A program made the position numbers and the translations under genes. Positions 2,517 to 29,403 of a stretch of 33,255 nt of DNA are shown here, piece after piece. The notes below the pieces were generated by a model that saw nothing but the letters and a program-made list of their open reading frames with translations, was not told where the DNA came from and searched no databases. This DNA comes from Thermoplasmata archaeon (lineage in GTDB: Archaea; Thermoplasmatota; Thermoplasmata; Thermoplasmatales; Thermoplasmataceae). Position 1 is the stretch's first letter, and each line of letters starts with the position of its first letter. The DNA lies in contig JAKAWY010000010.1 in the NCBI GenBank assembly GCA_021816745.1, forward strand, positions 1-33,255, given 5' to 3'.

Positions 2517-3569
2517 TCAGACGAAGGAATCTGCATCATAGTTTGAAAACAGATCCTTTCCAATACTGTCACCATTTCCGATGATGAAGTCTGACTTTAC
2601 ACCGGTGAATACCATGAACACATAGATTCCATCTGTGATGTCAGGCCTGATTTCAATTCCACCAATTATTTCGCAATCTACTCCGGAAATTTCAGTGATT
2701 TTCTTCATGGCATAGTTGTATTCTCCGAGCTCTATGTCACTTCCTATTAACCTGAGCAAACAACCGTTGGCCTTCGAAATATCCACATTAATGAAAGGAT
2801 TCTTCAATGCCTGATTAATTGAGAAATCTATTCTTCCCTCCCCTCCGGCAGACTTTCCCACCGCCATGAATGTGGATCTTGATCTTGAGAGAACCTTCTT
2901 CAAATCCTGAAAATCAATATTTATTCTTCCAGGATCATTAATGGTTCTTACCAGTCCGGTGATCTGATCCATTATGAATTTGGCAGTCATGGTGAAGTTG
3001 TCCTCGTAATTCTTCGTTTTGTCCATGCTGTCCTCCAGCCTCTGGTTAGGTATCACTATGATAACATCAGAATATTCGCTCAAGGCAGGGAGCCAGTCTT
3101 TAGCGTTGGCCATTTTTTCCTTTCCTTCGCTTTCAAAGGGAAGTGTAACCATGGAAAAAACCAGTGCCTTGTTTTCCTTGGCAAGTTTAGCTAAAACCGG
3201 GGCACTTCCTGTACCCGTTCCTCCTCCAAGAGTCGCAATTATAAAAACGATATCAGTCCCATATACCGCTTTTTTTAATGAGTCCTGGGATTCCAGGGCT
3301 GCAAGTTTTCCTACTTCCGGGTTGTTTCCTGCACCCAAACCTTTTGCTATGCTTTTACCTATGAGAATCTTTCCGTCTGCATTTACCTTTTTAAGAAGAT
3401 GTGATGCATCAGTGTTAATTGCAATTGTTCTGGCATCCCCATGATCCTGTGCCTGTATCTCAGAAAGTATGTTGGTACCGCCTCCACCACACCCAATAAT
3501 CCTGATTTTGATTTTGGCCTGGTTAGCAATTCTCTCGAGTTCTTCTGTGTTTTCCTTCATGGTAAGCAT
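2517..3569 (-). CDS. ftsZ: Cell division GTPase FtsZ (divergent)
   Basis: Tubulin-superfamily GTPase that polymerises at the division site. The 350-aa sequence has an N-terminal G-loop GCGGGGTN (27-34), NTDA (52-55), GLGAGNNPEVG (78-88), the tubulin signature GGGTGTGSAP (115-124), PFESEG (144-149) and the T7 synergy loop NIDFQD (217-222) with both catalytic aspartates. It is divergent: IATLGGG replaces the usual AGMGGG, and the segment after T7 (SRSRSTFMAVGKSAGGEG) is unusual. The C-terminal tail is short, ending NYDADSFV. ATG 3569 is favoured by a TATA-like TTAATATA about 27 nt upstream (leaderless); ATG 3560 is the alternative. It lies about 1.9 kb from the divergently oriented ESCRT-like operon. 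Confidence 0.93.
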   Translation of the reverse strand: MLTMKENTEELERIANQAKIKIRIIGCGGGGTNILSEIQAQDHGDARTIAINTDASHLLKKVNADGKILIGKSIAKGLGAGNNPEVGKLAALESQDSLKKAVYGTDIVFIIATLGGGTGTGSAPVLAKLAKENKALVFSMVTLPFESEGKEKMANAKDWLPALSEYSDVIIVIPNQRLEDSMDKTKNYEDNFTMTAKFIMDQITGLVRTINDPGRINIDFQDLKKVLSRSRSTFMAVGKSAGGEGRIDFSINQALKNPFINVDISKANGCLLRLIGSDIELGEYNYAMKKITEISGVDCEIIGGIEIRPDITDGIYVFMVFTGVKSDFIIGNGDSIGKDLFSNYDADSFV

Positions 3570-3809: not shown

Positions 3810-4391
3810 GTGACTAGAAAGATAACTGTCAATTTGTACATGACTCTTGACGGATATGGTGCTTTCCCTGATTATCCGGGCTCTGACATTGAAGATCCTG
3901 AGCCAAACGATTTCTGGAAAGAGATGTGGATAAATATGTACACCAAGGCGGATACGATTATTTTTGGAAGGAGATCATATGAAGGACATGCTCAGGTACA
4001 TTCCGTAGCTAACCGGAAATCCACTGATCCTGAATACCTGTATGATTATTCACGTTTTCTTGAAAAATGCAAACTCATTGTTCTAAGCAATACCTTGAAA
4101 AAAGCGGAATGGGGGAATACTGAAATAATGACTGGAGACCTGGGTGAAATTCTGAAGAAAATAAGATCAGTACCGGGAAAGGAAATAATAATAGAGGGTG
4201 GCCCCGCACTTGTTCACGATGTTATAAAAACGGGTTTTGCGGACGAATATAGAATTTATGTCATGCCTGTGATCTACGGCAGAGGGCCCCATTACTGGGG
4301 TGCTATGGCAAAACAGGAGACGCTGAAGCTGGTCAGTGTAAAAACTCTCCCCTTTGGAGAATTGATTCTTCACTACAAATGCGTTAGATAA
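3810..4391 (+). CDS. RibD/DHFR-fold reductase family protein
   Basis: 193-aa protein of the RibD C-terminal / dihydrofolate-reductase-like family. It begins with a strand and the MTLDGYGAF segment (11-19) where the substrate binds, then TIIFGRRSYEG (49-59), LIVLSNTLKK, and the NADPH-binding IIIEGGPALVHD (124-135) typical of RibD_C, ending in YVMPVIYGRG. Such proteins reduce a pterin- or pyrimidine-like substrate with NAD(P)H; the true substrate is unknown. The start is GTG 3810, since the ATG at 3800 is in another frame and closes at once. Monocistronic, followed by hsp20 with its own promoter. Family confident, substrate not. Confidence 0.82.
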   Translation: MTRKITVNLYMTLDGYGAFPDYPGSDIEDPEPNDFWKEMWINMYTKADTIIFGRRSYEGHAQVHSVANRKSTDPEYLYDYSRFLEKCKLIVLSNTLKKAEWGNTEIMTGDLGEILKKIRSVPGKEIIIEGGPALVHDVIKTGFADEYRIYVMPVIYGRGPHYWGAMAKQETLKLVSVKTLPFGELILHYKCVR

Positions 4392-4487
4392 GTGTCCAGA
4401 GTGATTTAATCAATTTTTCATTTGCGTACACAAATAATGCGTATTTTGAAAACAAGAGAAAGATGTCCCATTCTAAACTAAACAATC

Positions 4488-4497
4488 TTTAAATAAA
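4488..4497 (+). promoter_or_regulatory. TATA box of hsp20
   Basis: TTTAAATAAA, centred about 25 nt upstream of ATG 4517, fits a leaderless transcript. No clear heat-shock repressor palindrome was found beside it. Confidence 0.55.
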
Positions 4498-4516
4498 GAG
4501 TAATTATATTGCAATC

Positions 4517-4906
4517 ATGACAACTATTTACGGTCCATTAAAATTCATGGCAGATGAATTCATGAAGAATGTTGATGAGAGATCAAAGGAAGTAATGACC
4601 TTGCTTTATCCTCCAATATCAATGTATGAATCTGAAAATCACCTGGTAATTGAAGCCGATATCCCTGGTTTTGACAAGAAACATATCAATGTCAGGGTTA
4701 ACAAAAGAACCGTGGAAATTAGCGCAACTAGGAAATCACTGGAAAAAGACAATGTCTATATCGACCAGAGACCGGATAAGATTTTCAAGACAGTCAGGCT
4801 TCCCATGGAAGCAGATGAAGATTCCCCATTCACTGCAAAATACGAGAATGGCGTCCTTACCATAAATATTCCCATTAAAGGATTTAAGTCCGTCAAAATT
4901 GAGTAA
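4517..4906 (+). CDS. hsp20: Small heat shock protein (Hsp20 / alpha-crystallin)
   Basis: ATP-independent holdase chaperone that binds unfolding proteins in large oligomers. The 129-aa protein has a short N-terminal arm (1-33) and an alpha-crystallin domain from about residue 36 (ISMYESENHLVIEADIPGF) to 120, including the diagnostic ENGVLTINIP near 109-118. The C-terminus has a V-K-I triplet that fits the IxI/V oligomerisation motif. Length is at the short end for archaeal sHsps. Leaderless promoter just upstream; T/A-rich sequence follows the stop. Confidence 0.92.
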   Translation: MTTIYGPLKFMADEFMKNVDERSKEVMTLLYPPISMYESENHLVIEADIPGFDKKHINVRVNKRTVEISATRKSLEKDNVYIDQRPDKIFKTVRLPMEADEDSPFTAKYENGVLTINIPIKGFKSVKIE

Positions 4907-4926
4907 AAAAAATAATAACACAAACA

Positions 4927-4935
4927 TATTTATAT
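4927..4935 (+). promoter_or_regulatory. TATA box of the small membrane protein gene
   Basis: TATTTATAT centred about 24 nt upstream of ATG 4955; the gene would be leaderless. Confidence 0.5.
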
Positions 4936-4954
4936 CATTAAAAGATAATACCTC

Positions 4955-5275
4955 ATGGATTTTTCCACGATACTTACAAACCCTCTGGTCATTCTGGCCT
5001 TAATCTTTGTTGATGGGCTCCTGTTTGGTCTCGGGATTAAGAAAGGTGTGTGGTCAGTAATGCTCATAGTTCTTGCTGTACTCCTGTCGGAATATATCAA
5101 TTATTCCGTGATACCCAGTGCCTCATTATCTTCCTTTGAAACAAACATCCAGAATCACATCACTTACATTGTCCAAAACTTACAAACTCTAATTCCTGGT
5201 GGAAGCACAACCTCAATCAGTGCATCTCTTATGCTTTTTGCAGTGGGATTCATCATAGGATACCTTAAAGGATAA
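4955..5275 (+). CDS. Small three-helix membrane protein, unrecognised
   Basis: 106-aa hydrophobic protein that I do not recognise. Three membrane segments can be read: residues about 9-27, 31-50 and 88-104. A polar loop of some 35 residues (SASLSSFETNIQNHITYIVQ...) lies between the second and third and is probably on the outside. The first loop holds two lysines (GIKKG), suggesting a cytoplasmic side. It has its own leaderless promoter and ends 154 nt before the ESCRT-like operon, on the same strand. A role as membrane partner of that operon is only a guess from position. Confidence 0.7.
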   Translation: MDFSTILTNPLVILALIFVDGLLFGLGIKKGVWSVMLIVLAVLLSEYINYSVIPSASLSSFETNIQNHITYIVQNLQTLIPGGSTTSISASLMLFAVGFIIGYLKG

Positions 5276-5394
5276 TTTTTAAATCTCCCTTTCTATTTTT
5301 TTAAAATCATTGTAAACTTTTAAACTGTCTGGCTGAATTTGTTTTATTGCAAAGTGGGATTGGACAGTATTTTTACACATACCACATGAAAAGC

Positions 5395-5415
5395 ATTATA
5401 TCTTGATTTATATTG
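5395..5415 (+). promoter_or_regulatory. Promoter of the ESCRT-like operon
   Basis: Two overlapping TATA-like stretches occur: ATTATATC near 5396-5403 and TTTATATTG near 5407-5415. The first lies about 30 nt before ATG 5430, so transcription would start close to the start codon. The preceding 100 nt contain no ORF. Confidence 0.45.
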
Positions 5416-5431
5416 ATTAAAAGATCAATAT
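5410..5431. promoter_or_regulatory. Perfect inverted repeat over the operon start
   Basis: ATATTGAT (5410-5417) and ATCAATAT (5424-5431) form a perfect 8-bp inverted repeat with a 6-nt spacer (TAAAAG). It overlaps the likely transcription start and the first two bases of the ATG. A further TTGAT lies at 5403-5407. This is a good place for a repressor operator; function is inferred from position and symmetry only. Confidence 0.45.
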
Positions 5432-6020
5432 GGCCCTTTTCAAGAGGAAAAAGGAAGGCGACTTGACCTCTGCTTCCCCGGAAGAATTAGACAAGATGAT
5501 TTTAGGTGCTGAAACTGACGTTTCAGTGATGGAAAAAGAAAGAGACAGAAATAAGAAAAAATTTGATGAACTATTCAAGGAAGGATCCCTGGCCACCGGT
5601 GCAAGAAGGGAAAGCATCGCACAGGAACTGGAGTTTCTTGAAAAAGATATTTCTGATGTAGACAGGAGGATGAGGAAGTACAGGAAAGCCCTGAACATCA
5701 TGAAGGAAACCAGGAGAGCGAAATCCACCAATATCGATACTGTGGACAAGATCACGGAACAGACCAGCGGTTCTGAACTGAAACAGGTTCTTGCCAGTGG
5801 AAGGGTAAAGGAGAAGTTCCAGGAAAATAAGATGAACCAGTTGCTGGATTCAATTTCTGATGTGGACTCACTGGATGAGGAGGAGGAATCTTCAAGCAAG
5901 TACCTGAAGATGTTCGAGGACATGGACAGGAACAGGGAAAAACTAGTTCCAGGAGAAGCCACAGAGGAAAAAAACAAATCAACCAATGTGGACGAAAATT
6001 CTGGAGAAAACCCGGAGTGA
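5430..6020 (+). CDS. Helical ESCRT-III-like candidate, operon gene 1
   Basis: 196-aa, highly charged helical protein opening the five-gene operon. A basic N-terminus (MALFKRKKEG), like the membrane-binding start of many ESCRT-III subunits, is followed by a long helical hairpin (about 18-50 and 58-98). A shorter helix pair (104-147), an acidic linker (148-156), a short helix (SSKYLKMFEDMDRNREK, 154-170) and a disordered acidic tail follow. This order resembles ESCRT-III/CdvB (alpha1-alpha2 hairpin, alpha3-alpha4, linker, C-terminal helix), and it sits 6 nt before a Vps4-like ATPase gene. Sequence similarity is too low to be sure by eye; an unrelated coiled-coil adaptor is the alternative. Confidence 0.75.
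   Translation: MALFKRKKEGDLTSASPEELDKMILGAETDVSVMEKERDRNKKKFDELFKEGSLATGARRESIAQELEFLEKDISDVDRRMRKYRKALNIMKETRRAKSTNIDTVDKITEQTSGSELKQVLASGRVKEKFQENKMNQLLDSISDVDSLDEEEESSSKYLKMFEDMDRNREKLVPGEATEEKNKSTNVDENSGENPE
6014..6020 (+). promoter_or_regulatory. SD site fixing the TTG start of AAA copy 1
   Basis: GGAGTGA, 6 nt before TTG 6027, overlaps the TGA stop of the preceding gene. No ATG or GTG lies at a suitable distance, so the SD decides for TTG and implies translational coupling. Confidence 0.65.
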
Positions 6021-6026
6021 TTTACT

Positions 6027-7238
6027 TTGGGTTCTGATTATCTCGCCATAGACAATATCAAGCAGGTCATTTCAGAGGATATTAGAACTGAAAAAAAGGC
6101 AGAAGATGGTGGAGATCTTGAACGGGCCATTTCACTGTGCAAGTCAATAATAGGCAATCTCAAGATAGTCAGCGAAATGGATAGCAAGTACAGTAAAAAA
6201 TACAATGATGTCATTGAAATCTGGGAAAAACGCGTCAGGGAGATGGAAAGTGGAAAAACACCACGCTCCAGGCCCAGGGGGCATCCTGCCACAGGTTCAT
6301 CAGGAAATGGTAAAGCTGCTGCAAATGATGGCCTTATTGGAAAAATGGAAGGAGAATTCAGGGCAAGAATTGAGTCGCTGATCTCAAAATCCAATATTAA
6401 ATGGTCAGAAATCGGTGGACTTGAAGAGGAAAAAGGGTCCATAATGGAGGCAGTATTCTTTGCAATCGCTTCCCCTGACGTAAATATCAACGTACCCAAG
6501 TTAAGGAATATTCTTCTGTTTGGGCCGCCAGGGACAGGAAAAACCACCATTGCAAAAGCTATAAGCTCTAATATTGACGCCACTTTTTTCAATGTGACTA
6601 TATCAGAATTATTGTCCAGATACGTGGGGGATTCAGAAAGGCTTGTCTCCAAATTATACGACACAGCCAGGGATATGTCCCCCTCTGTGGTGTTTATTGA
6701 TGAAATCGAATCCCTGGTGAGAAAAAGGGATGAAAATAAGAGTACTACATCTGTTCTTCAGCAGTTTTTGGGACAACTGGACGGATTCAGTACAGGAGAA
6801 CAGTTTGTACTTACAGTTGCAGCAACTAACATCCCATGGGAACTGGATCAGGCCATTCTATCCAGATTCGAAAAGAAAATTTACATTGGCCTGCCAGATC
6901 CGGGCACCCGTAAGAGGATACTGGAAATAAATACGAAAGATAAGGGGTATACGGTAAATGCCAATCTTTCCGGAATTGCTTCCAGAACAGAAAATTTTTC
7001 CGGGAGGGATCTGAACTTCCTTTGCTCAGACGCCATAAGAACCATGCTCAGGAGGGCAAATTCTGATCTGATTGGAAAACTTGACAGTGGTGTTTCCAAT
7101 GGATCAAAAATGAATTACAGGGTAAAGCCGCTGGAGGAAAGCGATTTCATGCAGGCCATGGAACGGACAAAACCGGCCAGTGACAGGGAAACGCTGAACC
7201 AGTATATGAAATGGAAAAGCAGGTTTGCTTCAAATTGA
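6027..7238 (+). CDS. Vps4/CdvC-like AAA ATPase with MIT-like domain (copy 1)
   Basis: 403-aa ATPase expected to form a hexamer that pulls ESCRT-III-like polymers through its pore. Residues 1-73 form a three-helix MIT-like bundle, then a Gly/Pro/Arg linker (75-100) and one AAA domain: Walker A GPPGTGKT (166-173), pore loop RYVGDS (198-203) with Tyr where most Vps4 proteins have Trp, Walker B VVFIDE (221-226), sensor 1 ATN (266-268), and NIPWELD...SRFEKKIYIGLPDP, a strongly Vps4-like stretch with arginine finger R280. The end (TKPASDRETLNQYMKWKSRF) matches the Vps4 C-terminal helix. The start is TTG 6027, supported by an SD GGAGTGA at 6014-6020, 6 nt upstream, which contains the stop of gene 1. 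Confidence 0.92.
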   Translation: MGSDYLAIDNIKQVISEDIRTEKKAEDGGDLERAISLCKSIIGNLKIVSEMDSKYSKKYNDVIEIWEKRVREMESGKTPRSRPRGHPATGSSGNGKAAANDGLIGKMEGEFRARIESLISKSNIKWSEIGGLEEEKGSIMEAVFFAIASPDVNINVPKLRNILLFGPPGTGKTTIAKAISSNIDATFFNVTISELLSRYVGDSERLVSKLYDTARDMSPSVVFIDEIESLVRKRDENKSTTSVLQQFLGQLDGFSTGEQFVLTVAATNIPWELDQAILSRFEKKIYIGLPDPGTRKRILEINTKDKGYTVNANLSGIASRTENFSGRDLNFLCSDAIRTMLRRANSDLIGKLDSGVSNGSKMNYRVKPLEESDFMQAMERTKPASDRETLNQYMKWKSRFASN

Positions 7239-7246
7239 GGTGAAAT

Positions 7247-7852
7247 ATGTCAAAAAATAACACCTTGGATGAATTAATGGATTTATATTCCAATGCAGGT
7301 CTTCAGCCCCGGTGGGGCATGGGATTTTCAGCCTCATGGGTAAAATTTGGCTCAAAAAGATACACCGGAAAGAAGGGAATTCAGAATATAACCCATGATT
7401 TACAGGACATGTATGTGGTGCTGGAAAAAACATCTGAAAAGATTGAGCTCCTTAAGAATACTGAGAAAAATCTGGTTCAATCCAAACCCACCATGTGGGA
7501 TGTCAAGGTAGACACTATCAGAAAGCAGCTGGATGCGGAATCGATCAATTTTGGACAGCTTGAACTCAGATACAGGTTCCTCACCCTCCTGAGATCCATG
7601 TATTCTGTTATTTCCACACAGGAACTCCTGAACAACGTGGACAAATTCCTGAACAACCGTAAGAATACAGATTCCATCAAGGAATCTCTTCGCGACATGA
7701 TGATGAATGAAAAAGAGATGAAAAGCAGCATGGAATCCATGAGTGATTATATGGATGCCGTCAGGGGAACCAGGCCATCCCAGCAAATGAAAGAAAATTC
7801 CAGGGTTGTAAATCCACCTGAGGAAAGCAATGACGACGTGGAGGTGCTATGA
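7247..7852 (+). CDS. Unrecognised helical protein, operon gene 3
   Basis: 201-aa protein, not recognised. Residues 1-45 are unusual: a short helix (TLDELMDLYSNAG), then an aromatic and basic stretch with PRWGMGFSASWVKFGSKRY (21-39) that could lie on a membrane. Residues 46-170 are helical, with a possible long hairpin (46-75, 82-120) and two shorter helices, which would fit an ESCRT-III-type core. The C-terminal 30 residues are polar, with PPEESNDD. SD GAGGTGA (7237-7243) precedes ATG 7247, 8 nt after the Vps4-like gene. It is either a second ESCRT-III-like subunit or an adaptor or nucleator in place of CdvA, which is absent here. Inference rests on the operon. Confidence 0.8.
   Translation: MSKNNTLDELMDLYSNAGLQPRWGMGFSASWVKFGSKRYTGKKGIQNITHDLQDMYVVLEKTSEKIELLKNTEKNLVQSKPTMWDVKVDTIRKQLDAESINFGQLELRYRFLTLLRSMYSVISTQELLNNVDKFLNNRKNTDSIKESLRDMMMNEKEMKSSMESMSDYMDAVRGTRPSQQMKENSRVVNPPEESNDDVEVL
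7840..7846 (+). promoter_or_regulatory. SD site of the ESCRT-III-like gene
   Basis: GGAGGTG within the end of the preceding gene. Spacing is 2 nt to ATG 7849 and 5 nt to ATG 7852, favouring the second ATG. Confidence 0.6.
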
Positions 7853-8466
7853 TGGGTATCCTGAATAAAAAATCCAAGGAAGAGCTTGACATTGAGACTC
7901 AGATGAACATCAAGATGCTAAAAAAGAGGGCAGAGGAACATGCAGCTAAATGTGCTTCCATGTCGGAAACCTATGCAGGAAAGGCCCAGGAAGCAAAAGA
8001 CATTGGCAACCAGGCCCTTTTTGAGGATTTTTCCAGGAAGTCAAAAGACCTTAAGGAACAGGCTGCAAAGATCAAATCCTTCATACTTATAGTCCAGGAC
8101 ATGGAGATGATGAGGAACCAGTCTTCAGTCATGAATGCCTTTGCAGAGACCATGAAAAGTTTTATCAAGTCCATGAACCAGGGAAAAGTCAATGTGTCAT
8201 GGATGTCCGGGGTACAGTCCAACCTGGACAAGGCCATCATGGAAAATGAGAAAATGGGGGATTTCTTCGGGGAAATGCTTCAGGATCTCGGCCAGAACAG
8301 TGCAGCCCTTAACACCATGTCCGGGAAAGAAAAAACTCCTGTAAGGAAATCCACAGACAAAGAGAATGAATCCGGCGGAGAAAGTAATAAGGGAACACAG
8401 GAAAGTGAAACTGACGTTGACAGGGAAATACAGGAAAATCTCAAAAAACTTAATGAAAGGAAGTAG
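7852..8466 (+). CDS. ESCRT-III/CdvB-like protein with MIM1-like tail
   Basis: 204-aa helical protein, the best ESCRT-III candidate of the operon. Helices at about 9-50 and 51-85 form a hairpin rich in Ala, Lys and Glu; shorter Met-rich helices follow (86-110, 113-148) up to DFFGEMLQDLG. A disordered linker (157-186) leads to DREIQENLKKLNERK at the very end. That tail resembles MIM1, consensus (D/E)xxLxxRLxxL(K/R): D190, I193, L197 and L200 fit, with Asn at the Arg position. Snf7-family proteins are recruited to Vps4 MIT domains by such tails. ATG 7852 is chosen over 7849 because SD GGAGGTG (7840-7846) is then 5 nt away. It overlaps the previous stop. Confidence 0.83.
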   Translation: MGILNKKSKEELDIETQMNIKMLKKRAEEHAAKCASMSETYAGKAQEAKDIGNQALFEDFSRKSKDLKEQAAKIKSFILIVQDMEMMRNQSSVMNAFAETMKSFIKSMNQGKVNVSWMSGVQSNLDKAIMENEKMGDFFGEMLQDLGQNSAALNTMSGKEKTPVRKSTDKENESGGESNKGTQESETDVDREIQENLKKLNERK

Positions 8467-8476
8467 GTGAGCCATT

Positions 8477-9667
8477 TTGCCATCACTGGAATGGTACTTG
8501 AGCAGTTCCCTAAACTGGCAGAAAAAAGGGATGGAGTTTGAGTCCAGAGGAGATTTTGACAATGCAGCTGAATGTTATTTTAAATCTGCCGAAGATATGC
8601 TCAAGGCCGCTAGCCTTTCCTTGAGTGGAGTGAAAAAAACAAGGCTTGAAACTTCAAAAAAACTTATTGAAAAAGGGCAGTCGCTGAAATCCATGGCTGG
8701 AAATCCCATCCTGGATGTGAATAATCAAACTCCAAGGGAAAAGACACCAGTTTCCCACAGGAGGAAAGATGATCATGATGATGAAACATCTGATGAATTT
8801 CTTTCAAGAATTGGAGTCCTGAATATAGAAGTCCCCAATGTAACCTTCGATGATGTTGCAGGCCTGGATGCCCTGAAAAATGACATTAGATCAAACATAA
8901 TCCTTCCATTTCTTGATCCCGAAGCTGCCAGAATTGCCAGGGAATTTGATCACAGGCCGGGAGGCGGGAAGCTTCTATACGGGCCCCCTGGCACCGGTAA
9001 AACATTTATTGTAAAAGCTATCGCCAACGAAGTAAACGCATTTTTTATAAGAATTAATCCATCTGATCTCTTAAGCCAGTGGTTTGGAGAACTGGAAAAA
9101 AATATCTCAAAATTGTTCAGGGTTGCAAGGGAACATGCCCCATGCGTACTGTTTTTTGATGAAATAGACGCACTGGCCCCAAAAAGGGGAAGCACCAGTT
9201 CTACAGTGATGAAGAGGGCCGTGCCTGCGCTTTTGAGTGAAATGGATGGTATTTCCGATGGTGAAGACAAGGCTCTGCTGATTATTGGGGCCACCAACGA
9301 ACCATGGTCCATAGACGAGGCTCTTCTGAGGCCCGGAAGGCTGGGTGAAAAAATTTACATTCCACCACCAGATCTTCTGGCAAGAAGTAAAATCTTTGAA
9401 CTGTATCTTAAAAAAGCCAGGACTGCAGATATCAATTTTGAAGAACTGGCCTCCAGAACAGATGGTTTCTCCGCTGCAGACATTAAGTTCATATGCACAA
9501 AAACAAAATCCACCGTCTACGATGAGGTGATAAAGACCAGAGCTGAAAGCTCCATTATAACAGAGGATCTCATCAGGACAATTGGTGAAACGAAACCATC
9601 TATAAGCACGGAAAGAATAAAAGAGTATGAAAACTTTGCAAAATATAATGTGAAAGATCTTGATTAA
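8477..9667 (+). CDS. Vps4/CdvC-like AAA ATPase with MIT domain (copy 2)
   Basis: 396-aa second ATPase of the operon. The N-terminal MIT-like bundle (about 5-73) includes GDFDNAAECYFKSAEDMLKA, close to the MIT helix 2 pattern. After a polar linker (78-108) comes the AAA domain: Walker A GPPGTGKT (169-176), pore loop QWFGE (201-205) with the canonical aromatic W202, Walker B VLFFDE (224-229), sensor 1 ATN (272-274) and LRPGR (284-288), a CDC48-type arginine pair that copy 1 lacks. It ends KPSISTERIKEYENFAKY, a Vps4-type C-terminal helix. TTG 8477 is set by SD AGGTGA (8465-8470), 6 nt upstream. Both active sites look intact, so the two copies may form a mixed hexamer or serve different substrates. 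Confidence 0.92.
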   Translation: MPSLEWYLSSSLNWQKKGMEFESRGDFDNAAECYFKSAEDMLKAASLSLSGVKKTRLETSKKLIEKGQSLKSMAGNPILDVNNQTPREKTPVSHRRKDDHDDETSDEFLSRIGVLNIEVPNVTFDDVAGLDALKNDIRSNIILPFLDPEAARIAREFDHRPGGGKLLYGPPGTGKTFIVKAIANEVNAFFIRINPSDLLSQWFGELEKNISKLFRVAREHAPCVLFFDEIDALAPKRGSTSSTVMKRAVPALLSEMDGISDGEDKALLIIGATNEPWSIDEALLRPGRLGEKIYIPPPDLLARSKIFELYLKKARTADINFEELASRTDGFSAADIKFICTKTKSTVYDEVIKTRAESSIITEDLIRTIGETKPSISTERIKEYENFAKYNVKDLD

Positions 9668-9703
9668 ATCGCGTATTACTGTTGAATCTGATTTTCATAG
9701 CCC

Positions 9704-9718
9704 TTAATTTTTCCTTTT
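9704..9718 (+). terminator. T-rich putative terminator of the ESCRT-like operon
   Basis: TTAATTTTTCCTTTT about 40 nt after the last stop. Archaeal termination often uses U-tracts without a hairpin; no stem is visible here. Confidence 0.3.
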
Positions 9719-9784
9719 CATGGAACTGGTTCTTTCATCAGCATAAAATTTATCCGATGCCTCTGGTGAAACTACCAAAAAGAT

Positions 9785-9794
9785 TATTTTAAAT
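9785..9794 (+). promoter_or_regulatory. TATA box of the glycosyltransferase gene
   Basis: TATTTTAAAT centred about 27 nt upstream of ATG 9817; leaderless start expected. Confidence 0.5.
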
Positions 9795-9816
9795 TTTCGT
9801 CTCCGGGAAATATAAT

Positions 9817-11322
9817 ATGCCGCTATGGATGTGGATCACCCTAATTTCAATTGCTTTTTCGCTCCCTGTGATAGTCACATCATATTATCAGCTGTTACTG
9901 TTCATTTCTGCTTTTTTTTACCCTCATGATTTGGAAAAAGAAACTCCGGACTTAAATGAATTTCCTTCTGTTTCAATTCTTATCGCATGCTATAACGAGA
10001 AAAATGTCATAGCAGAATCACTGGAAGCCATGAGCCACCTTGATTATCCACTTTCAAAATTGCAGGTGATTATTGCTGATGATTCCAATGACGAAACAGC
10101 CACCATAGTTGATCAGGCTGCGCTAAACCTTAAAAATCTGGGCATCGATACAATCGTATCCAGAAGAGATGTAAGAAGGAATTTCAAAAGCGGTGCAATG
10201 AATAAGGCGCTTCTTCGGGTAACCGGAGAATTTACACTGCTTCTTGATGCTGATTCCCGGGTTAAGCCTGAAACATTAAAAAAAGGAGTGCATGCAATCA
10301 CAACTCATGACAACACTTCATTTGTTTCATACAGAGTAGGACACTATAATCGATATTTCAACAGGATTACTGAGCTTTTTGCCCTTTCGCAGGACATGGG
10401 AGATACCCTGTCTAAGATGGGGTCGTACAAGTTGAATCTCCCTTTTTCTCTTCAGGGTGGTTTCACTCTTGTAAGGACTTCCACATTGAGGGAAATCGGC
10501 GGATGGTCTGAGAAAACCATCACAGAGGATGCTGATCTTTCCTGGGTACTCTATCTTCGCGGCACAAGGGGGATATATCTCAGCAACTCCAGGATAATGA
10601 GTGAAGACCCCTCAACCCTGGAAACATGGAAAAAACAGGTGGCCAGAGTTCAGCAGGGTTGGACCAAAATGGAAATCGACAGATTCTGGAGCACTTTGAA
10701 AAATAAGGAAGCATCCATCAAGAGCAAATTCATTCTTTTCCTTATCTTTTTTGCCCCCTTTTCCAATGTAAGCTGGATTGTCACCACTTTTATTTCTGCC
10801 TTAGCCGTAATTTTCCACATAGAAGGCCCCTCCAGCTCCATATTCAGCAGCCCAATCTATGTTGGTATCCTTACTGTTCCCACCGCAGTTTTCTATCTTT
10901 CCGGGTTATACGCCCTGAAAGTGCAGAATATCATGACCCTGAGAAATGTCGTTATGATACCACTGTTGTCCTATACCGCTGCCTGTATGATCACACGTGC
11001 CGCCATAGGGTTTACAAATGGAATCATGGGCAAAAGAGGGCACTTTTTCAGGACTCCTAAAAGAGGTTTGAACAAATCCACTGAGATGAACTATTACATG
11101 GATCTTAGAATGGATAGAAATGACTACATCGAGGCAATTTTTTCCTCCATAGGGCTTGTCCTGGGTTTGATAATCCTTTATTATGGTGTGTGGATCCTCT
11201 CATTATCTCTCCTGGCATACTCCATATTAACATTGAAATCACTTAATTTCAGAAGAACTACCCCAAGTGAAACTGACCTTAAGGTAGAAGAGATTCATGA
11301 TGAAAATATCCAAAACGCATGA
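9817..11322 (+). CDS. Membrane GT2 glycosyltransferase
   Basis: 501-aa processive-type family 2 glycosyltransferase. An N-terminal membrane helix (about 6-33) precedes a cytoplasmic GT-A domain: SILIACYNE (53-61), IIADDSND (85-92), DAD (144-146) for metal and nucleotide sugar, ITEDADLSW (235-243) with the catalytic-base-type ED, and QQGW (279-282) at the position of the QxxRW acceptor motif. Four or so membrane helices follow (about 303-330, 340-370, 375-400, 435-470), as in cellulose or glucomannan synthase-like enzymes. It probably adds sugars to a lipid or polysaccharide of the envelope; donor and acceptor are unknown. Single gene with its own promoter, 149 nt after the ESCRT-like operon. 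Confidence 0.9.
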   Translation: MPLWMWITLISIAFSLPVIVTSYYQLLLFISAFFYPHDLEKETPDLNEFPSVSILIACYNEKNVIAESLEAMSHLDYPLSKLQVIIADDSNDETATIVDQAALNLKNLGIDTIVSRRDVRRNFKSGAMNKALLRVTGEFTLLLDADSRVKPETLKKGVHAITTHDNTSFVSYRVGHYNRYFNRITELFALSQDMGDTLSKMGSYKLNLPFSLQGGFTLVRTSTLREIGGWSEKTITEDADLSWVLYLRGTRGIYLSNSRIMSEDPSTLETWKKQVARVQQGWTKMEIDRFWSTLKNKEASIKSKFILFLIFFAPFSNVSWIVTTFISALAVIFHIEGPSSSIFSSPIYVGILTVPTAVFYLSGLYALKVQNIMTLRNVVMIPLLSYTAACMITRAAIGFTNGIMGKRGHFFRTPKRGLNKSTEMNYYMDLRMDRNDYIEAIFSSIGLVLGLIILYYGVWILSLSLLAYSILTLKSLNFRRTTPSETDLKVEEIHDENIQNA

Positions 11323-13465: not shown

Positions 13466-14245
13466 CTAAAACAACTTTACTTTCCCTTCTTTGTACATTT
13501 GCACAGCATCCAGCAGCATGTCAAGATGTACTTTGGAGGTAGCCTTTGGGATTGGGTATGTTCCCAGTGACAGCGTATAAACAAGACTGTATTGGGCAGG
13601 AGTCAGTCCGGAGTTCTGGACATTTTTCTTCATCCTTTCTGATGAAGGCATATGATTCCTGTTTAATGGTGTGTACGCTATGATCATAATACCTTTCTCT
13701 TTGCAGAAATCCCTGATACTGTTGAACTCCTTTACCTTGTCAACGTTTACTTCGATCTGGTTTGCATAAATCTGGCCCCCCGAAAAATCCCATGCCTCCT
13801 TCAGAAGATCAAGATCATAATTGCTCACACCGATGTGTTTTGTATATCCTTTCTCCTTCAGGCTGAGCATATCTTTTATCAGGGTCTCGTGATTGTATTT
13901 CTCATCAGGCCAGTGTATTAGATATAGATCCACAAAATCCATGGCAAGTCTCTCCAGGGAGTTTCTTATTGCCGTTTCAAGATTCCGGAAACTGGACGGC
14001 CATGCCTTGGTTGTCACAAAGAAATTATCCCTTTTATTTCCCTTGAGTGCGTTGCCCAGTATCTCCTCTGCATGCCCCATGCCATACATCTCTGCGGTAT
14101 CAAAGAAGTTAATTCCCCTTGACATTGCATATCTAATGGACTCAATATGTTCTTTATCATTGGAGGTGTCCGGGCTGCCTGTACCCCCGATCTTCCAAGT
14201 TCCCAGACCAATTTCGGAAAAATTCTTCCTTTCCAATTCATGCAC
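13466..14245 (-). CDS. Aldo/keto reductase
   Basis: 259-aa TIM-barrel oxidoreductase using NAD(P)H. The catalytic tetrad is complete: D49 and Y54 (FFDTAEMYG), K80 (VTTKAW) and H111 (LIHWP); GVSNYD (about 139-144) and the C-terminal IPKATS cofactor segment are also present. At 259 aa it is shorter than the usual 280-320, consistent with a compact archaeal AKR. The start is GTG 14245, overlapping the end of the upstream 345-aa gene by 8 nt, so the two are cotranscribed. Physiological substrate unknown. Confidence 0.9.
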   Translation of the reverse strand: MHELERKNFSEIGLGTWKIGGTGSPDTSNDKEHIESIRYAMSRGINFFDTAEMYGMGHAEEILGNALKGNKRDNFFVTTKAWPSSFRNLETAIRNSLERLAMDFVDLYLIHWPDEKYNHETLIKDMLSLKEKGYTKHIGVSNYDLDLLKEAWDFSGGQIYANQIEVNVDKVKEFNSIRDFCKEKGIMIIAYTPLNRNHMPSSERMKKNVQNSGLTPAQYSLVYTLSLGTYPIPKATSKVHLDMLLDAVQMYKEGKVKLF

Positions 14246-15275
14246 CTATTATTTTCCTTAACTTATCTGCGGAATCTCCACATTTTGAAATCATGGATTC
14301 AATTTCAATCCTGCTGTATGATCCACCGGTGTTTCGCATAGAGTTCAATGCTTCCCTGATTTCTGCTGATTTTAACTCAAACAGCTTGAGGATAAAGGAT
14401 GAAAAATTCTTGCTTTCGATTATGTCCTGGCCCCCCATTTTTAGTCCTGTGATCTCAACCCTGTCACATTCCAGCTCCATCATGGTGCCATAGATCCTGT
14501 CAAGAGGTTCCTGGATCCTCTCAATATCCATTTTTTTCGAGAGTCCATCTGACCCGGTAATATCTATCGTGTTTTTACCATCAAAAAATTCAATTGAGAC
14601 ATAATCCGGCATATCGCCTCTGGGCATGCTGAAAGTAACTCCGGAGTTCCCTTCAGGATTGTTGAATATTGCAAGGAATCTTCCACCTGCGATAGTTGCC
14701 TTTGTGAGAATATACCTGTCTATCTTTTCAAATCCCCCATCTGTCCCTTTTTCAATATCATGAACAGTTTCATGTATGGGTATCCTTACTCCCTTCTCCA
14801 GTGAACTGAATCTCAGGGGCCTCTCAAAGAGCTGTTGCTTGCTGGGATCAATTTTAAATGAATATTCGATTCCACTCTCAACATAATAGATTGCCTTAGC
14901 TTCATAAGAATCTCCGGATAATTCCAGTATTATGTTGGAGTCGTTTTCTTTAAGGAGTCGAAGTGATAAGAATTCCATAATTCCTTTCATACAGTTATTT
15001 TTCTCAGATTCCATTTTCCTTCCGAGTTCAAGGAGATTTGCTTCAGATTCAGTCCTTAGTTTTTCATTAACCTTATTAATGGTGTGTTTAGCATGCTCCA
15101 TTACTTCCTTTTGAACATCTGCAAAATGTGCTGGAGAAAACTTTTCCTTGTGTCTGGAAATTGTTCTTGACAAATCAATTTCCAATTCACTGCATTCATG
15201 GATGTGTGATAATCCTGTGCTGGAAACCCTTTCTGACTCCAATTTTAAGGATTTATAATTTGTAATGTGTATCAT
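14238..15275 (-). CDS. Unrecognised 345-aa protein upstream of AKR
   Basis: I do not recognise this protein. Residues about 35-110 are a long charged helix or coiled coil (SRHKEKFSPAHFADVQKEVMEH...); residues 115-270 look like a beta-rich domain (IILELSGDSYEAKAIYYVESG, FLAIFNNPEGNSGVTFSMPRG, YVSIEFFDGKNTIDI); residues 300-345 return to helices. There is no signal peptide, membrane span or catalytic motif. ATG 15275 has no strong TATA element at -25, so the mRNA may have a longer leader reaching into the region with the inverted repeat at 15332-15372. Its overlap with the aldo/keto reductase gene suggests joint expression. Confidence 0.75.
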   Translation of the reverse strand: MIHITNYKSLKLESERVSSTGLSHIHECSELEIDLSRTISRHKEKFSPAHFADVQKEVMEHAKHTINKVNEKLRTESEANLLELGRKMESEKNNCMKGIMEFLSLRLLKENDSNIILELSGDSYEAKAIYYVESGIEYSFKIDPSKQQLFERPLRFSSLEKGVRIPIHETVHDIEKGTDGGFEKIDRYILTKATIAGGRFLAIFNNPEGNSGVTFSMPRGDMPDYVSIEFFDGKNTIDITGSDGLSKKMDIERIQEPLDRIYGTMMELECDRVEITGLKMGGQDIIESKNFSSFILKLFELKSAEIREALNSMRNTGGSYSRIEIESMISKCGDSADKLRKIIGA

Positions 15276-25141: not shown

Positions 25142-25753
25142 TCAAAAGAAGCCTTTATCGATCACTATGAGCAGTACTATTGAAATTACAAACATCAGGG
25201 CGTAGAATGATGTGTCCCATTTAAGGACATTGTAACCGTCCAGTGGTGGTATGGGAAGTAAATTGAAGAATGCAATGGCAATATTAACTGAGCCTGCAAT
25301 AAGGAACACCTGTGATATCCATCCCAGATTGAAGGACCCGAATATGAAAAGGAACATTCCGAGAAAGATGTTTGTCAGGGGGCCCGAAATGGATATGAGT
25401 CCATACAGTTTCCTGTTGTTCACATTGTATACCTCTGTGGCCCCGGGGGCAGCAAAAATGAATCCAAGAAATGAGGAGGCCAGTGAGATGAACAGTCCTG
25501 GCAACCACATCCTGAATCTTGCCTTGTACCCATACCTGATGGCCACCTGCCTGTGAGCCAGTTCATGCAGTGCGAATGCGCTGAACCCGGAAAACATTCC
25601 TGCGGGAAGGTAGAAATCAGCAAATCTTGGTGAGTAAAGGCTTGATGAGAACTGTGCAAAGGCTATGGAAAATGAAAGCCCTATTACAAAACCCGAAAGG
25701 AGGAATTCCTCCATTTCAGTGGTTTTCCTCTTGAATGAAATCAGATTGTCCAT
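25142..25753 (-). CDS. M50-family (site-2-protease-like) membrane metalloprotease
   Basis: 203-aa intramembrane zinc protease. It has the HELAH zinc motif (63-67) in a membrane helix and NLLPIPPLDG (164-173), with D172 as third zinc ligand, in a later helix; about six membrane segments in all. It lacks PDZ and CBS domains, as in the short archaeal M50 group. Such proteases cut membrane-bound substrates, for example anti-regulators; the target is unknown. The start overlaps the end of the 1220-aa gene by 13 nt, so the two are one transcript. Confidence 0.9.
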   Translation of the reverse strand: MDNLISFKRKTTEMEEFLLSGFVIGLSFSIAFAQFSSSLYSPRFADFYLPAGMFSGFSAFALHELAHRQVAIRYGYKARFRMWLPGLFISLASSFLGFIFAAPGATEVYNVNNRKLYGLISISGPLTNIFLGMFLFIFGSFNLGWISQVFLIAGSVNIAIAFFNLLPIPPLDGYNVLKWDTSFYALMFVISIVLLIVIDKGFF

Positions 25754-28700
25754 CTTCCACCACTGTTTAATTGCTTTATTGCCCTGACCTGGTAATAAAT
25801 ACGGTATGCCATCTGTATCCCCACATTCAACAGGCAGCTGTACGCCATAGGGTTGTCCGGAAGGTTGTCACTGATGCATTTAATGGCAAGCTTCTTCACT
25901 TCAGGTGTATCCGCATTTACATTATAGGATGATATTTTGGCTAATCCTCTCAAATAATAAAAAAGTTCCACTGAAAAACGTACATCCTTGAAGTTGTTGG
26001 CATAATAAATCTGTGGCATATCAACCCTTTCGATGTTGATAATGCCTAATTTCCTGTTTATAATCCGAAGGATTTCAGAGGATCTATCCTCCAGGTAAGA
26101 CTGGCCAAATAAATTGTTGTCCGGAGGTGTGGAAAGGAAATCGATTACATCGTCCGCCATTATGGGATCTGCACCGGTGAAACTTATGATTTCACCTTTG
26201 TCCAGCCTCCTTCCCTCTGAAAAGCTTCTCTTCAGCACTGCCCCGGAAAATTGCAGCATCTTGTCAAAATATATGCTTTTTCTCAGAAGATCATTGAGCT
26301 TTTCATATTGATCATTAGCGATAAGATTCCCCTGGGCCTTTGCCAGTACTGTTTCTGCCTGTGAGAAGTAATTCCCCTGAATTAGGGAAAATATGATTAT
26401 TCCGGCAGAATTGGTATCCATAAGGCTCGGATGTGCCATGAAATATTTCAGGATAGTATCGTATTTTCTTGATTTTTCCAGCTCCATGCTTGCTTCATGA
26501 AAAATTTTACGTTTATCATGGACAGGCTTCCTGGAGTTGAAAAATTTTGTAAGGTACTCGTTCAGTTCGTCAAGTTTACCCATATCTGGCAGTGTTCTAA
26601 TCAACAGGGATATGACTTCAGGACTCTCATGGGTTTCCTTGGCCAGTTTCCTGAGTATGGTTAATGCTACATCGGCCCTTCTGTCTGCAAGCAGTTTTTC
26701 CACAATAAAGGTTCCCGGATTTAGTACAGGTTGAGCCATTATTTTTTCAATGGTTGCCTCACGCAGGAATTTATTTGACCAGAACCTTTCCACAATCACA
26801 GACAGGGCCCCCTGATCTTCCTGGTTTTTCAGGTTAAGTTTCTTGAGAATTTTTGAAATTTCCTGGATATTATCAGTGGCAGCGTAAAGGATAACCTGAA
26901 ATGGTGTCTTATTGCTCATATGGGATATCAGTTCTTCTGCATCATGAAATCTTGAATCGCCAATCAGGGATTCTATGTATCCCGGTATCTCCAGCTTATT
27001 TTTACCCTGCTCTATGGCCTTGCCGTAATAGTACAGTGCCGATGAAAAATCCCTTTTTGAAAGATAATAATCACCAAAGATGATGCATGTGTCAACATCA
27101 ATTCCGGAATCTGCAGTACTAATTATGAGATCCTCAAGTTCCGGAAGCCTGTTCGCTTCTTTCAGATCACGGGCATAATTCAGAATGTCATGGTGAGTTC
27201 TGTTCCTGAAAGCAACTATGATTTTATCCTCCTGAATCACTCCTTCAGAGTCTTTATCTTCCTTTTTTATGGACCTGGAAAGCCTGTGGGAGAAAATGCT
27301 GTCTGCACCATAATATTCCAGTAAATCAATGAGATTCGCAGTTAACCCTTTTTCTTTATTCCCCAAAAATACTTTTTCCAGTGCTGAAAAATCAAATTCC
27401 TTCAATCCCCCAAGCCTGGCAATTTCTTCTACCAGCACCAAAGCTTGTTCTGGCGATATTTCTTTGTTGACTTCCGGGTAAGCAACCAGGAATGGCAATG
27501 CCCTTAATTTTTCCATGGCTTTTTCCAGACTGTATCTGGCATTTTGAAGGTTCCCCTGGGATTTTTCCAGGATATGCCTGTAATAAAGAAGGTAGGGGTC
27601 GTTTTCGAGTTTAAGAGATTCCATAAGTTTTGATGCAGAACTTAATTCCCCAAGTTCAATCTTCTTTTTAATGACAGGGAAATTGTATTCTATCCAATCC
27701 CTGGCGGGATTCTTATTTCTGTATTGCTCGGAAATCTCCCTCACTGTGGCACTATTCTCCAATGAGGTGTATTTTTCAGTATATTCCTTATTTCCAAACA
27801 GGTAAAGTAACGCAAAACCTTCCTGATCCATGAGGTGTTTCTCTACGATCTCCTCATTCCTGTAAACCAGCCCGTTACTGTATAATATGTTTCTGAGAAT
27901 TGTAAGGTAGATGTCCTTTTCCTTTCCCTTGATGGAGGAGGAAAATGCAGTGAATGACTTGTTGTCCCTGACATTCCTAAGGACAGTCGTTAAAAATCTG
28001 CCATCAATTGTTTCGTTGGGGAGGTTTGCAAAAAGCTGGCCCGCTTTCTCAAAAATGTTCTCATTAAGCATTGCATCAATGATTAGCCGGACTGCATTTG
28101 GACTCAGCTTAAGCTCACGGTCTGCATTGTTCTGGTATACGGCCAGAATTTTTCCGTACAATCCTTTCTGGTGAAGCTCAACGATATATGATTCCAGAAA
28201 CATTGTGTCTCCTGGATTTGCTACCATATATTTCTCGGATTTTTCAAGGAATAAATCCATGTTCCCCTTTCCCTTTTCCACCAGAAGGGAAAGTTTCAGC
28301 ATTTCAGACTCAGGTGGGTTATACTGCCTTAAAAGCTGGAACATTTCTGTAGCTTCCTTGATTTTACCCCCTTTTACCATGATTCCCACCGAAGGGATCA
28401 TGAGTTCCTGGTGCTTTTTTATGAATTCCAGGTTATTTTCAATGACGGAGGATGACACTGCGTAATTTTTCATGTTTTCTGATGCCCTGAGAAAACTGAA
28501 CATTGCCCCGGGGTTGTTTTCAAGGATTCCATGTCTTTCCAGAAACAGATCAATTAATTCTTCATCCCTTCCCAGTTCGTACAATATGTTTAATTTCAGT
28601 TCAACACATGATTCAAATCCTGGTTTTTCCGCCAGTATTGAATCTACTATCCTGAGAGATTCCTCATTCATTCCGACCTTTTCCATCAGGGATGCAACCT

Positions 28701-29403
28701 TGAACATGTCATCGGTTGTTTTAAGACTGGAAAGATCGAGGGACATCAATAAGCTTTTAAGTGCAGGAATTTCCTGGTTTTCGGCCAGTGATTCCATGTA
28801 TGCAAGAAGGTACTCCTGGGAATTGTCTACTGCAGACATCACTTTCAGGAATTCCATGATTTCCTTTTTGGCTGATTGCTTTCTTAAATTTTCTACTATA
28901 ATGTCTGTGATAAGCTTGGACGGATTTTGGGAATAATGAAGATAGGAAGTTTCATCGTATATCCCATTCAGGGAAAGGAACATCGCAATATAATCCCACT
29001 GGCCCACTTTTCCGCCCATGGTGAGAATGTTCTGGATTACCTGCGGAATGTTGGCAATAAAGGACTTCCCCTTGAAGAAAGCCATAATTTCTGCTTCACT
29101 TCCATTGCTGGCCAGCGATTTGGTATAATAAATCTGGATAACCCTGTTCCTCATGTTGCAGTTATAGAAAAGCCCGAGAATATTAGGATCAACGATACCC
29201 TGTTTTTCCCAGAGATCCCTGACAATTGTTTCAAACTGGGAATCTATTTCACTACCCACTTCAAAACCAGTTTGTAGATCTTTCAACAGGGAAACCATAT
29301 CATCAAGAATTTTCAACCTGCTATCTTTTCCCCTGGCTGAAATATAACGATCCATCAGGCTTTTCAGGAGCTTCCTGATATCTTCATCCCTCTGGGAGCC
29401 CAT
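25741..29403 (-). CDS. Giant helical-repeat (TPR-like) protein, 1220 aa
   Basis: Very long cytoplasmic-looking protein made of repeated helix pairs from end to end, without signal peptide, membrane span or catalytic motif. Clear TPR-like units are present, for example around residues 779-800 (SKRDFSSALYYYGKAIEQGK), and SEL1/TPR-like pairs recur (ALPFLVAYPEVNK, ALTILRKLAKE). It is probably an alpha-solenoid scaffold for protein complexes. I do not know a named family. ATG 29403 has TATA-like GTTAAATATT about 25 nt upstream (leaderless). It is cotranscribed with the M50 protease, which it might help to recruit or regulate; that link is only positional. Confidence 0.85.
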   Translation of the reverse strand: MGSQRDEDIRKLLKSLMDRYISARGKDSRLKILDDMVSLLKDLQTGFEVGSEIDSQFETIVRDLWEKQGIVDPNILGLFYNCNMRNRVIQIYYTKSLASNGSEAEIMAFFKGKSFIANIPQVIQNILTMGGKVGQWDYIAMFLSLNGIYDETSYLHYSQNPSKLITDIIVENLRKQSAKKEIMEFLKVMSAVDNSQEYLLAYMESLAENQEIPALKSLLMSLDLSSLKTTDDMFKVASLMEKVGMNEESLRIVDSILAEKPGFESCVELKLNILYELGRDEELIDLFLERHGILENNPGAMFSFLRASENMKNYAVSSSVIENNLEFIKKHQELMIPSVGIMVKGGKIKEATEMFQLLRQYNPPESEMLKLSLLVEKGKGNMDLFLEKSEKYMVANPGDTMFLESYIVELHQKGLYGKILAVYQNNADRELKLSPNAVRLIIDAMLNENIFEKAGQLFANLPNETIDGRFLTTVLRNVRDNKSFTAFSSSIKGKEKDIYLTILRNILYSNGLVYRNEEIVEKHLMDQEGFALLYLFGNKEYTEKYTSLENSATVREISEQYRNKNPARDWIEYNFPVIKKKIELGELSSASKLMESLKLENDPYLLYYRHILEKSQGNLQNARYSLEKAMEKLRALPFLVAYPEVNKEISPEQALVLVEEIARLGGLKEFDFSALEKVFLGNKEKGLTANLIDLLEYYGADSIFSHRLSRSIKKEDKDSEGVIQEDKIIVAFRNRTHHDILNYARDLKEANRLPELEDLIISTADSGIDVDTCIIFGDYYLSKRDFSSALYYYGKAIEQGKNKLEIPGYIESLIGDSRFHDAEELISHMSNKTPFQVILYAATDNIQEISKILKKLNLKNQEDQGALSVIVERFWSNKFLREATIEKIMAQPVLNPGTFIVEKLLADRRADVALTILRKLAKETHESPEVISLLIRTLPDMGKLDELNEYLTKFFNSRKPVHDKRKIFHEASMELEKSRKYDTILKYFMAHPSLMDTNSAGIIIFSLIQGNYFSQAETVLAKAQGNLIANDQYEKLNDLLRKSIYFDKMLQFSGAVLKRSFSEGRRLDKGEIISFTGADPIMADDVIDFLSTPPDNNLFGQSYLEDRSSEILRIINRKLGIINIERVDMPQIYYANNFKDVRFSVELFYYLRGLAKISSYNVNADTPEVKKLAIKCISDNLPDNPMAYSCLLNVGIQMAYRIYYQVRAIKQLNSGGRWTI

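Follow-up and report, generated by a model that had tools for sequence, protein, structure and literature searches.

The ESCRT system of Thermoplasmata, which has been regarded as reduced, is described as one that consists of a Vps4 ATPase, an ESCRT-III protein and a β-barrel protein of the arCOG07400 family (PMC10936438). Those sections of Makarova et al. (2024; PMC10936438) that are considered here call it minimal, and mention for this group neither a Vps4 protein of the euryarchaeal "Main" type nor a GTPase module. The combination of ESCRT proteins with GTPases is usually considered in the context of Asgard archaea and eukaryotes. Here we describe a Thermoplasmata lineage in which two archaeal ESCRT lineages are joined, and in which gene order and co-occurrence tie both of them to a GTPase module; these findings suggest a membrane-trafficking system far more elaborate than that reported for Thermoplasmata. 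No published description of the operon at its centre was found in the main texts of the open-licence literature searched.

The operon resides in the window, by which we mean the whole analysed stretch of 33,255 nt, and which originates from a single MAG (79% complete). It comprises five genes on the forward strand: P1 (5430-6020; 196 aa), A1 (6027-7238; 403 aa, TTG start), P2 (7247-7852; 201 aa), P3 (7849-8466; 205 aa) and A2 (8477-9667; 396 aa, TTG start). The ORF coordinates bear out the intergenic gaps of 6 nt (P1/A1), 8 nt (A1/P2) and 10 nt (P3/A2) given in a preliminary description of this DNA, while the 1-nt overlap of P2 and P3 reported there holds when the second ATG of P3 (7852) is used; with the start at 7849, the overlap is 4 nt (ATGA). 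The Shine-Dalgarno signals that had been claimed for each of the four internal genes are present as SD-like motifs (GGAG, GAGGTG, GGAGGTG and GGTGAG). A BRE/TATA-like promoter element (5388-5401, forward strand; GAAAAGCATTATAT, reading GAAAAGC..TTATAT) is positioned 28-42 nt 5' of the P1 ATG, and its TATA-like part is found at a similar position in relatives. Further upstream on the same strand, an hsp20-like gene (4517-4906), a syntenic neighbour whose membership in the system is uncertain, is followed by a gene (4955-5275) for a hydrophobic protein of about 106 aa, termed TM here, which may serve the system as a receptor or anchor in the membrane. Elsewhere in the window, the minus strand encodes a 345-aa protein (14238-15275) and a 1220-aa protein rich in repeats (25741-29403).

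The order hsp20-TM-P1-A1-P2-P3(-A2) is common to most genomes of the genus (the Cuniculiplasma group), and P3 homologues are present in 10 of its 12 genomes. The P1-P3 set also occurs in four further genera of the same family (g3, g14, g16 and g17), and one additional genus (g8) contributes a single weak P3 match. The gene-order comparison proposed in the preliminary description therefore finds the cluster conserved across related genomes, and since this order is kept in about a dozen of them, the five-gene operon is real and not a product of chance. Its surroundings and its motors vary. The hsp20 gene stands 5' of TM-P1-A1-P2-P3 in the same-genus genomes, and was not found in the clusters of G298, G024 and G026. 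TM adjoins P1 in the same-genus loci and in G298/G299, adjoins A2 in G026, G304 and G024, and is located near a minimal Vps4/ESCRT-III pair in G034. A2 is absent from the close relatives G003, G007 and G008, as well as from G194, though the rest of the operon is present, and the loci of G026 and G304 yielded no A1. Hence, the core consists of P1-P2-P3 combined with a varying set of motors, and neither A1 nor A2 is indispensable. In G026, a PPP-type phosphatase-like gene (L024:2-832) adjoins A2 and recalls the phosphatases of Main-clade ESCRT loci.

Scans of the three small proteins against Pfam and NCBIfam yielded no credible match, and a search of the window's own genome with the Snf7 model was empty, so that the canonical ESCRT-III protein of this genome was located by homology instead. 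Profile comparisons were more informative (the hhalign E-values are single-pair values). P1 aligns over 165 collinear columns with the ESCRT-III protein encoded beside the Main-clade Vps4 (94.2%, E 1.2e-7), and a search with its profile retrieves, at E-values from 2e-7 to 4e-6, a single gene from each of four other archaeal genomes. In the loci of Methanothermococcus, Thermococci and Archaeoglobus, the matching gene stands after an arCOG09748-like gene and upstream of the Main-type Vps4 gene within the same stretch. P3 matches the canonical Thermoplasmata ESCRT-III protein end to end in a collinear hhalign alignment of 194 columns (97.7%, E 1.7e-12), and the Thermoplasmata ESCRT-III reference profile in turn matches human CHMP3 in the PDB (E 1.9e-5). 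P1 and P2, which served as negative controls for P3, each stayed below 1% against the Thermoplasmata ESCRT-III profile. Judged by these comparisons, P1 is an ESCRT-III homologue of the euryarchaeal Main type, and P3 is a Thermoplasmata-type ESCRT-III paralogue. The prospect raised in the preliminary description, that all three small proteins might prove unrelated to ESCRT-III, does not apply to P1 and P3; its view of them as poorly described holds, at the level of sequence, for P2 alone, and its view of all three as highly charged suits P1 (43% D, E, K and R) but not P2 (29%) and P3 (33%), whose charge is moderate.

The C-terminus of P3 carries a MIM1-like motif, DREIQENLKKL (8419-8451, forward strand), whose relaxed form occurs in 1% of shuffled tails and which does not meet the strict consensus. 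A MIM1-like tail is also present in several P3 relatives, and the C-terminal amphipathic block is conserved where the tail is retained. In three congeners lacking A2 (L014:798-1337, L015:3266-3805 and L016:9172-9711), P3 ends without a MIM-like tail. We considered the joint loss of A2 and of the P3 tail as proof that the two proteins are partners and rejected it: G194, which lacks A2, keeps the tail, and the co-loss in the three congeners is probably one shared event, which leaves an A2-P3 pairing suggestive.

The predicted single-chain structure of P1 (AF2) contains the long hairpin of ESCRT-III proteins (residues 17-54/57-99), with a pLDDT of about 90 in this region and 68 overall. Its top list of Foldseek matches consists mostly of CHMP2A/3, Snf7, Vipp1, PspA and CHMP1B, none of them significant (E at least 0.18). 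The presence of PspA and Vipp1 among these matches raises the alternative that the system serves as a PspA/Vipp1-like membrane-stress or repair response, dealing with membrane damage in a wall-less acidophile. The genus has no cell wall that would buffer the membrane, and the hsp20 neighbour might also be read in this way, as might the occurrence of DO-GTPases in some psp operons (PMC11237479). However, three motors and an adaptor-like set of proteins (see below) seem more than repair needs, and the hsp20 neighbour is not conserved beyond the genus; we consider this alternative unlikely. For P2, the single-chain AF2 model (pLDDT 82, pTM 0.73) predicts a hairpin (residues 44-79/84-121) followed by short helices, a layout compatible with ESCRT-III, with its family unproven. 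Its Foldseek search returned no significant match (E at least 0.18), profile comparisons with Main ESCRT-III, the second Main paralogue, P1, P3 and the PDB gave no support, and no P2 homologue was present in the 13 Main-type or other archaeal genomes searched.

The AAA domains of A1 (E 1.6e-37) and A2 (E 3.9e-42) are intact. A tree of 33 AAA sequences was built with Cdc48 as the outgroup. In this small sampling, which includes three Main-type sequences and one TACK sequence (Desulfurococcales), A1 is sister to the Main-clade Vps4 proteins (support 100/99), while A2 falls into a Thermoplasmata Vps4 clade together with the Vps4 of the minimal system (100/99; a placement at the level of the clade). 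A third Vps4 of the same genome (contig C29, L135) belongs to this Thermoplasmata clade as well (100/99). Neither A1 nor A2 groups with the single Desulfurococcales Vps4, and the label "Cdv-like" of the preliminary description therefore names the wrong lineage; an ESCRT-type system with paired Vps4 ATPases, as it had proposed, is upheld by the tree and by the profile matches of P1 and P3. A1 is 56-76% identical to the A1 proteins of relatives and scores 182 bits over residues 23-401 against the CdvC model, below the model cut-off of 650. The two ATPases had also been described as MIT-AAA proteins with Vps4-type C-terminal helices. As a family trait, an MIT-like N-terminus is recognisable for A2, with Pfam MIT matches in 6 of 14 A2-type N-termini (best 6.5e-5; 0.008 and under the cut-off for the window's A2). 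It is weak for A1: a single-sequence search detected none, and a profile including Main-clade relatives has the MIT domains of CdvC and katanin among its best, weak PDB matches (E 0.2-0.4). The Vps4_C-like tail of A2 is weak too (16.7 bits versus a cut-off of 21.3). As far as such comparisons of sequences reach, A1/P1 and A2/P3 derive from two deeply separate archaeal ESCRT lineages and not from a simple duplication.

These placements bear on the notion that the AAA proteins are soluble Cdc48-like quality-control unfoldases and the helical proteins their non-membrane adaptors. The AAA domains do closely resemble those of Cdc48 in general, and the hsp20 neighbour would suit such a role, but the tree puts A1 and A2 inside Vps4 clades, apart from Cdc48, and P1 and P3 match ESCRT-III; this makes the notion very improbable. 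A long branch unites the A2 proteins of several congeners (L017:8893-10056, L018:9204-10370, L019:9111-10280 and L021:9207-10337). In these proteins, the pore-loop aromatic residue of the window's A2 (SQWFG) is replaced by R or K (DSRFG, DNKFG), and the motors may thus be altered. Contig C91 of the same genome (L136:1673-5217) encodes a diverged AAA ATPase (405 aa) whose gene overlaps one for a subtilisin-like protease, a pair that resembles a defence-type module.

The coordinates of the five genes in the preliminary description are correct, but they cover only part of a larger system, the remainder of which is found on other contigs. Contig C81 (L068:164-4918) carries an operon that encodes a DO-GTPase whose N-terminal part includes hydrophobic segments, a GAP1-N2 protein and a HEAT-like protein, and that faces the canonical ESCRT-III gene. 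The DO-GTPase matches PF19993 (DO-GTPase2; 1.3e-10, 41.8 bits, cut-off 27), the adjoining GAP1-N2 protein matches PF20013 (4e-6, 27.3 bits, cut-off 24), and the third gene has a weak HEAT_2 match. While the GTPase module, the third Vps4 and the further ESCRT-III lie on contigs other than that of the operon in the window's own genome, P1-A1-P2-P3, the DO-GTPase, GAP1, the HEAT-like protein, an arCOG09748-like protein, a third Vps4 and the canonical ESCRT-III are all encoded within about 18 kb in G298, G024, G006 and G010. The arCOG names are assigned from descriptions in the sections of PMC10936438 considered here and from gene order, not from arCOG models. Within the wider cluster, the coiled-coil/wH protein corresponds to the arCOG09748-like protein of the Main system (99%, E 3e-20); in the window's own genome it is found only as a C-terminal fragment at a contig end, outside the window. 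G026 and G304 add an arCOG08177-like protein, for which the window has no gene; the 171-aa protein of G304 matches its Main-system counterpart with an E-value of 6e-14.

In a survey of 117 genomes from the order, P1 (16/16), P2 (15/15) and P3 (16/16) were confined to genomes that also encode GAP1, which is present in 19 genomes overall; these counts refer to strong matches within the family and leave out one weak P2 match outside it. Fisher tests of the association give p values of about 1e-15 to 5e-17, ignoring relatedness. Within g3, g16 and g17, the distribution is patchy but largely concordant, with some members possessing the set and others lacking all of it, a pattern that speaks for joint gain or loss. 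Such patchiness, together with the DO-GTPase/GAP1 pair, would also fit a biological-conflict system in which the ESCRT part seals or sheds membrane upon attack by viruses or small parasitic archaea. Modules of this kind have been proposed to act as NTP-dependent conflict systems, and the same study lists C. divulgatum as one of a small number of archaea with conflict-type NTPase systems (PMC7159879). We regard a defence role as quite improbable, with no variable effector genes recognised in the clusters examined and with the core retained by almost every congener, which is not typical of a defence island.

FtsZ is encoded in the window itself (2517-3569, minus strand), 2 kb upstream of the operon, and SepF on contig C80; for C. 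divulgatum, a proteome study reports that FtsZ is expressed (PMC7285479). Two genes from FtsZ, the minus strand encodes a 295-aa coiled-coil protein (860-1747). Since both FtsZ and SepF are present, a sole role of the operon in cell division is unlikely. An accessory part in cytokinesis alongside FtsZ-SepF, for example in final membrane severing, is another reading: ESCRT divides cells in TACK archaea, the sections of PMC10936438 considered here favour a role of ESCRT in division for those Thermoplasmata that have no FtsZ, and FtsZ is a near neighbour in the window. Nevertheless, the presence of both division proteins counts against it, FtsZ was not found in the fetched stretches around the operon in relatives, and most relatives lack the system although they, too, have to divide, so that we view such a part as rather doubtful.

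We suggest instead that the products of the operon are probably the filament subunits and the motors of an expanded ESCRT machine with which this archaeon remodels membranes. By analogy with known ESCRT families, P1 and P3, which differ in ancestry, perhaps together with P2, would polymerise together on the cytoplasmic side of the plasma membrane and be held there by the short basic N-termini of the subunits and perhaps by the TM protein encoded upstream. Hexameric A1 and A2, of matching ancestry, would grip MIM-like C-terminal tails through putative MIT domains and extract subunits, and the staged remodelling of the filament by the two motors would lead to closure of a membrane neck. The membrane-bound DO-GTPase, GAP1, the HEAT-like and arCOG09748-like coiled-coil/wH proteins, the further ESCRT-III and the third Vps4 could take care of recruitment and act as a switch that depends on GTP. 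Such a machine would most likely serve to bud off or sort membrane and protein, or to repair the membrane, more than to divide the cell on its own. A more specific version can be put forward with much less confidence: a coat-like budding machine of the ESCRT type, gated by a GTPase, in a non-Asgard euryarchaeon, in which two separately evolved ESCRT-III/Vps4 pairs act in one filament, up to three Vps4 motors disassemble it in stages, the membrane DO-GTPase and GAP1 serve as a switch, and the HEAT-repeat protein serves as an adaptor. If these proteins cooperate, this wall-less and cultivable group would offer a natural test of how Vps4 paralogues share the work on a filament of mixed ESCRT-III subunits, and of whether the control of ESCRT by a GTPase arose more than once.

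Among the systems described to date, PspA/Vipp1 resembles P1 in fold at the level of the superfamily, but there is no PspA-type sequence match here, and dedicated Vps4 motors are present. The Cdv system of Sulfolobales (CdvA-CdvB-CdvC) combines an MIT-AAA motor with ESCRT-III partners, an arrangement that the operon probably shares; A1 and A2, however, belong to other Vps4 clades, and their host possesses FtsZ and SepF. With the DO-GTPase/GAP1-N2 systems of Kaur et al. (2020; PMC7159879), whose text makes no mention of ESCRT, the wider cluster shares a GTPase and a GAP1 protein that match PF19993 and PF20013 above their cut-offs, yet here their partners are ESCRT proteins. No arCOG07400 β-barrel gene was recognised at the operon when the ORFs of positions 4000-11000 were inspected. 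The minimal Thermoplasmata ESCRT (e.g., L066 and L067) nevertheless has its Vps4 in the clade that holds A2 and the third Vps4, an ESCRT-III protein paralogous to P3, and, in L066, a neighbouring TM protein; in comparison with it, which has a single ATPase, the genome studied here possesses three, along with additional ESCRT-III subunits and a GTPase module. As judged from the sections of PMC10936438 considered here, the Main-clade ESCRT (e.g., the Methanothermococcus locus L141) contributes a Vps4 that is sister to A1 and an ESCRT-III protein that matches P1, and its arCOG09748-like and arCOG08177-like proteins match cluster proteins in relatives. Unlike in that system, no kinase was recognised beside the operon in the clusters examined, and the Main-type components are found here in Thermoplasmata, joined to P2, P3, A2 and the DO-GTPase/GAP1 module.
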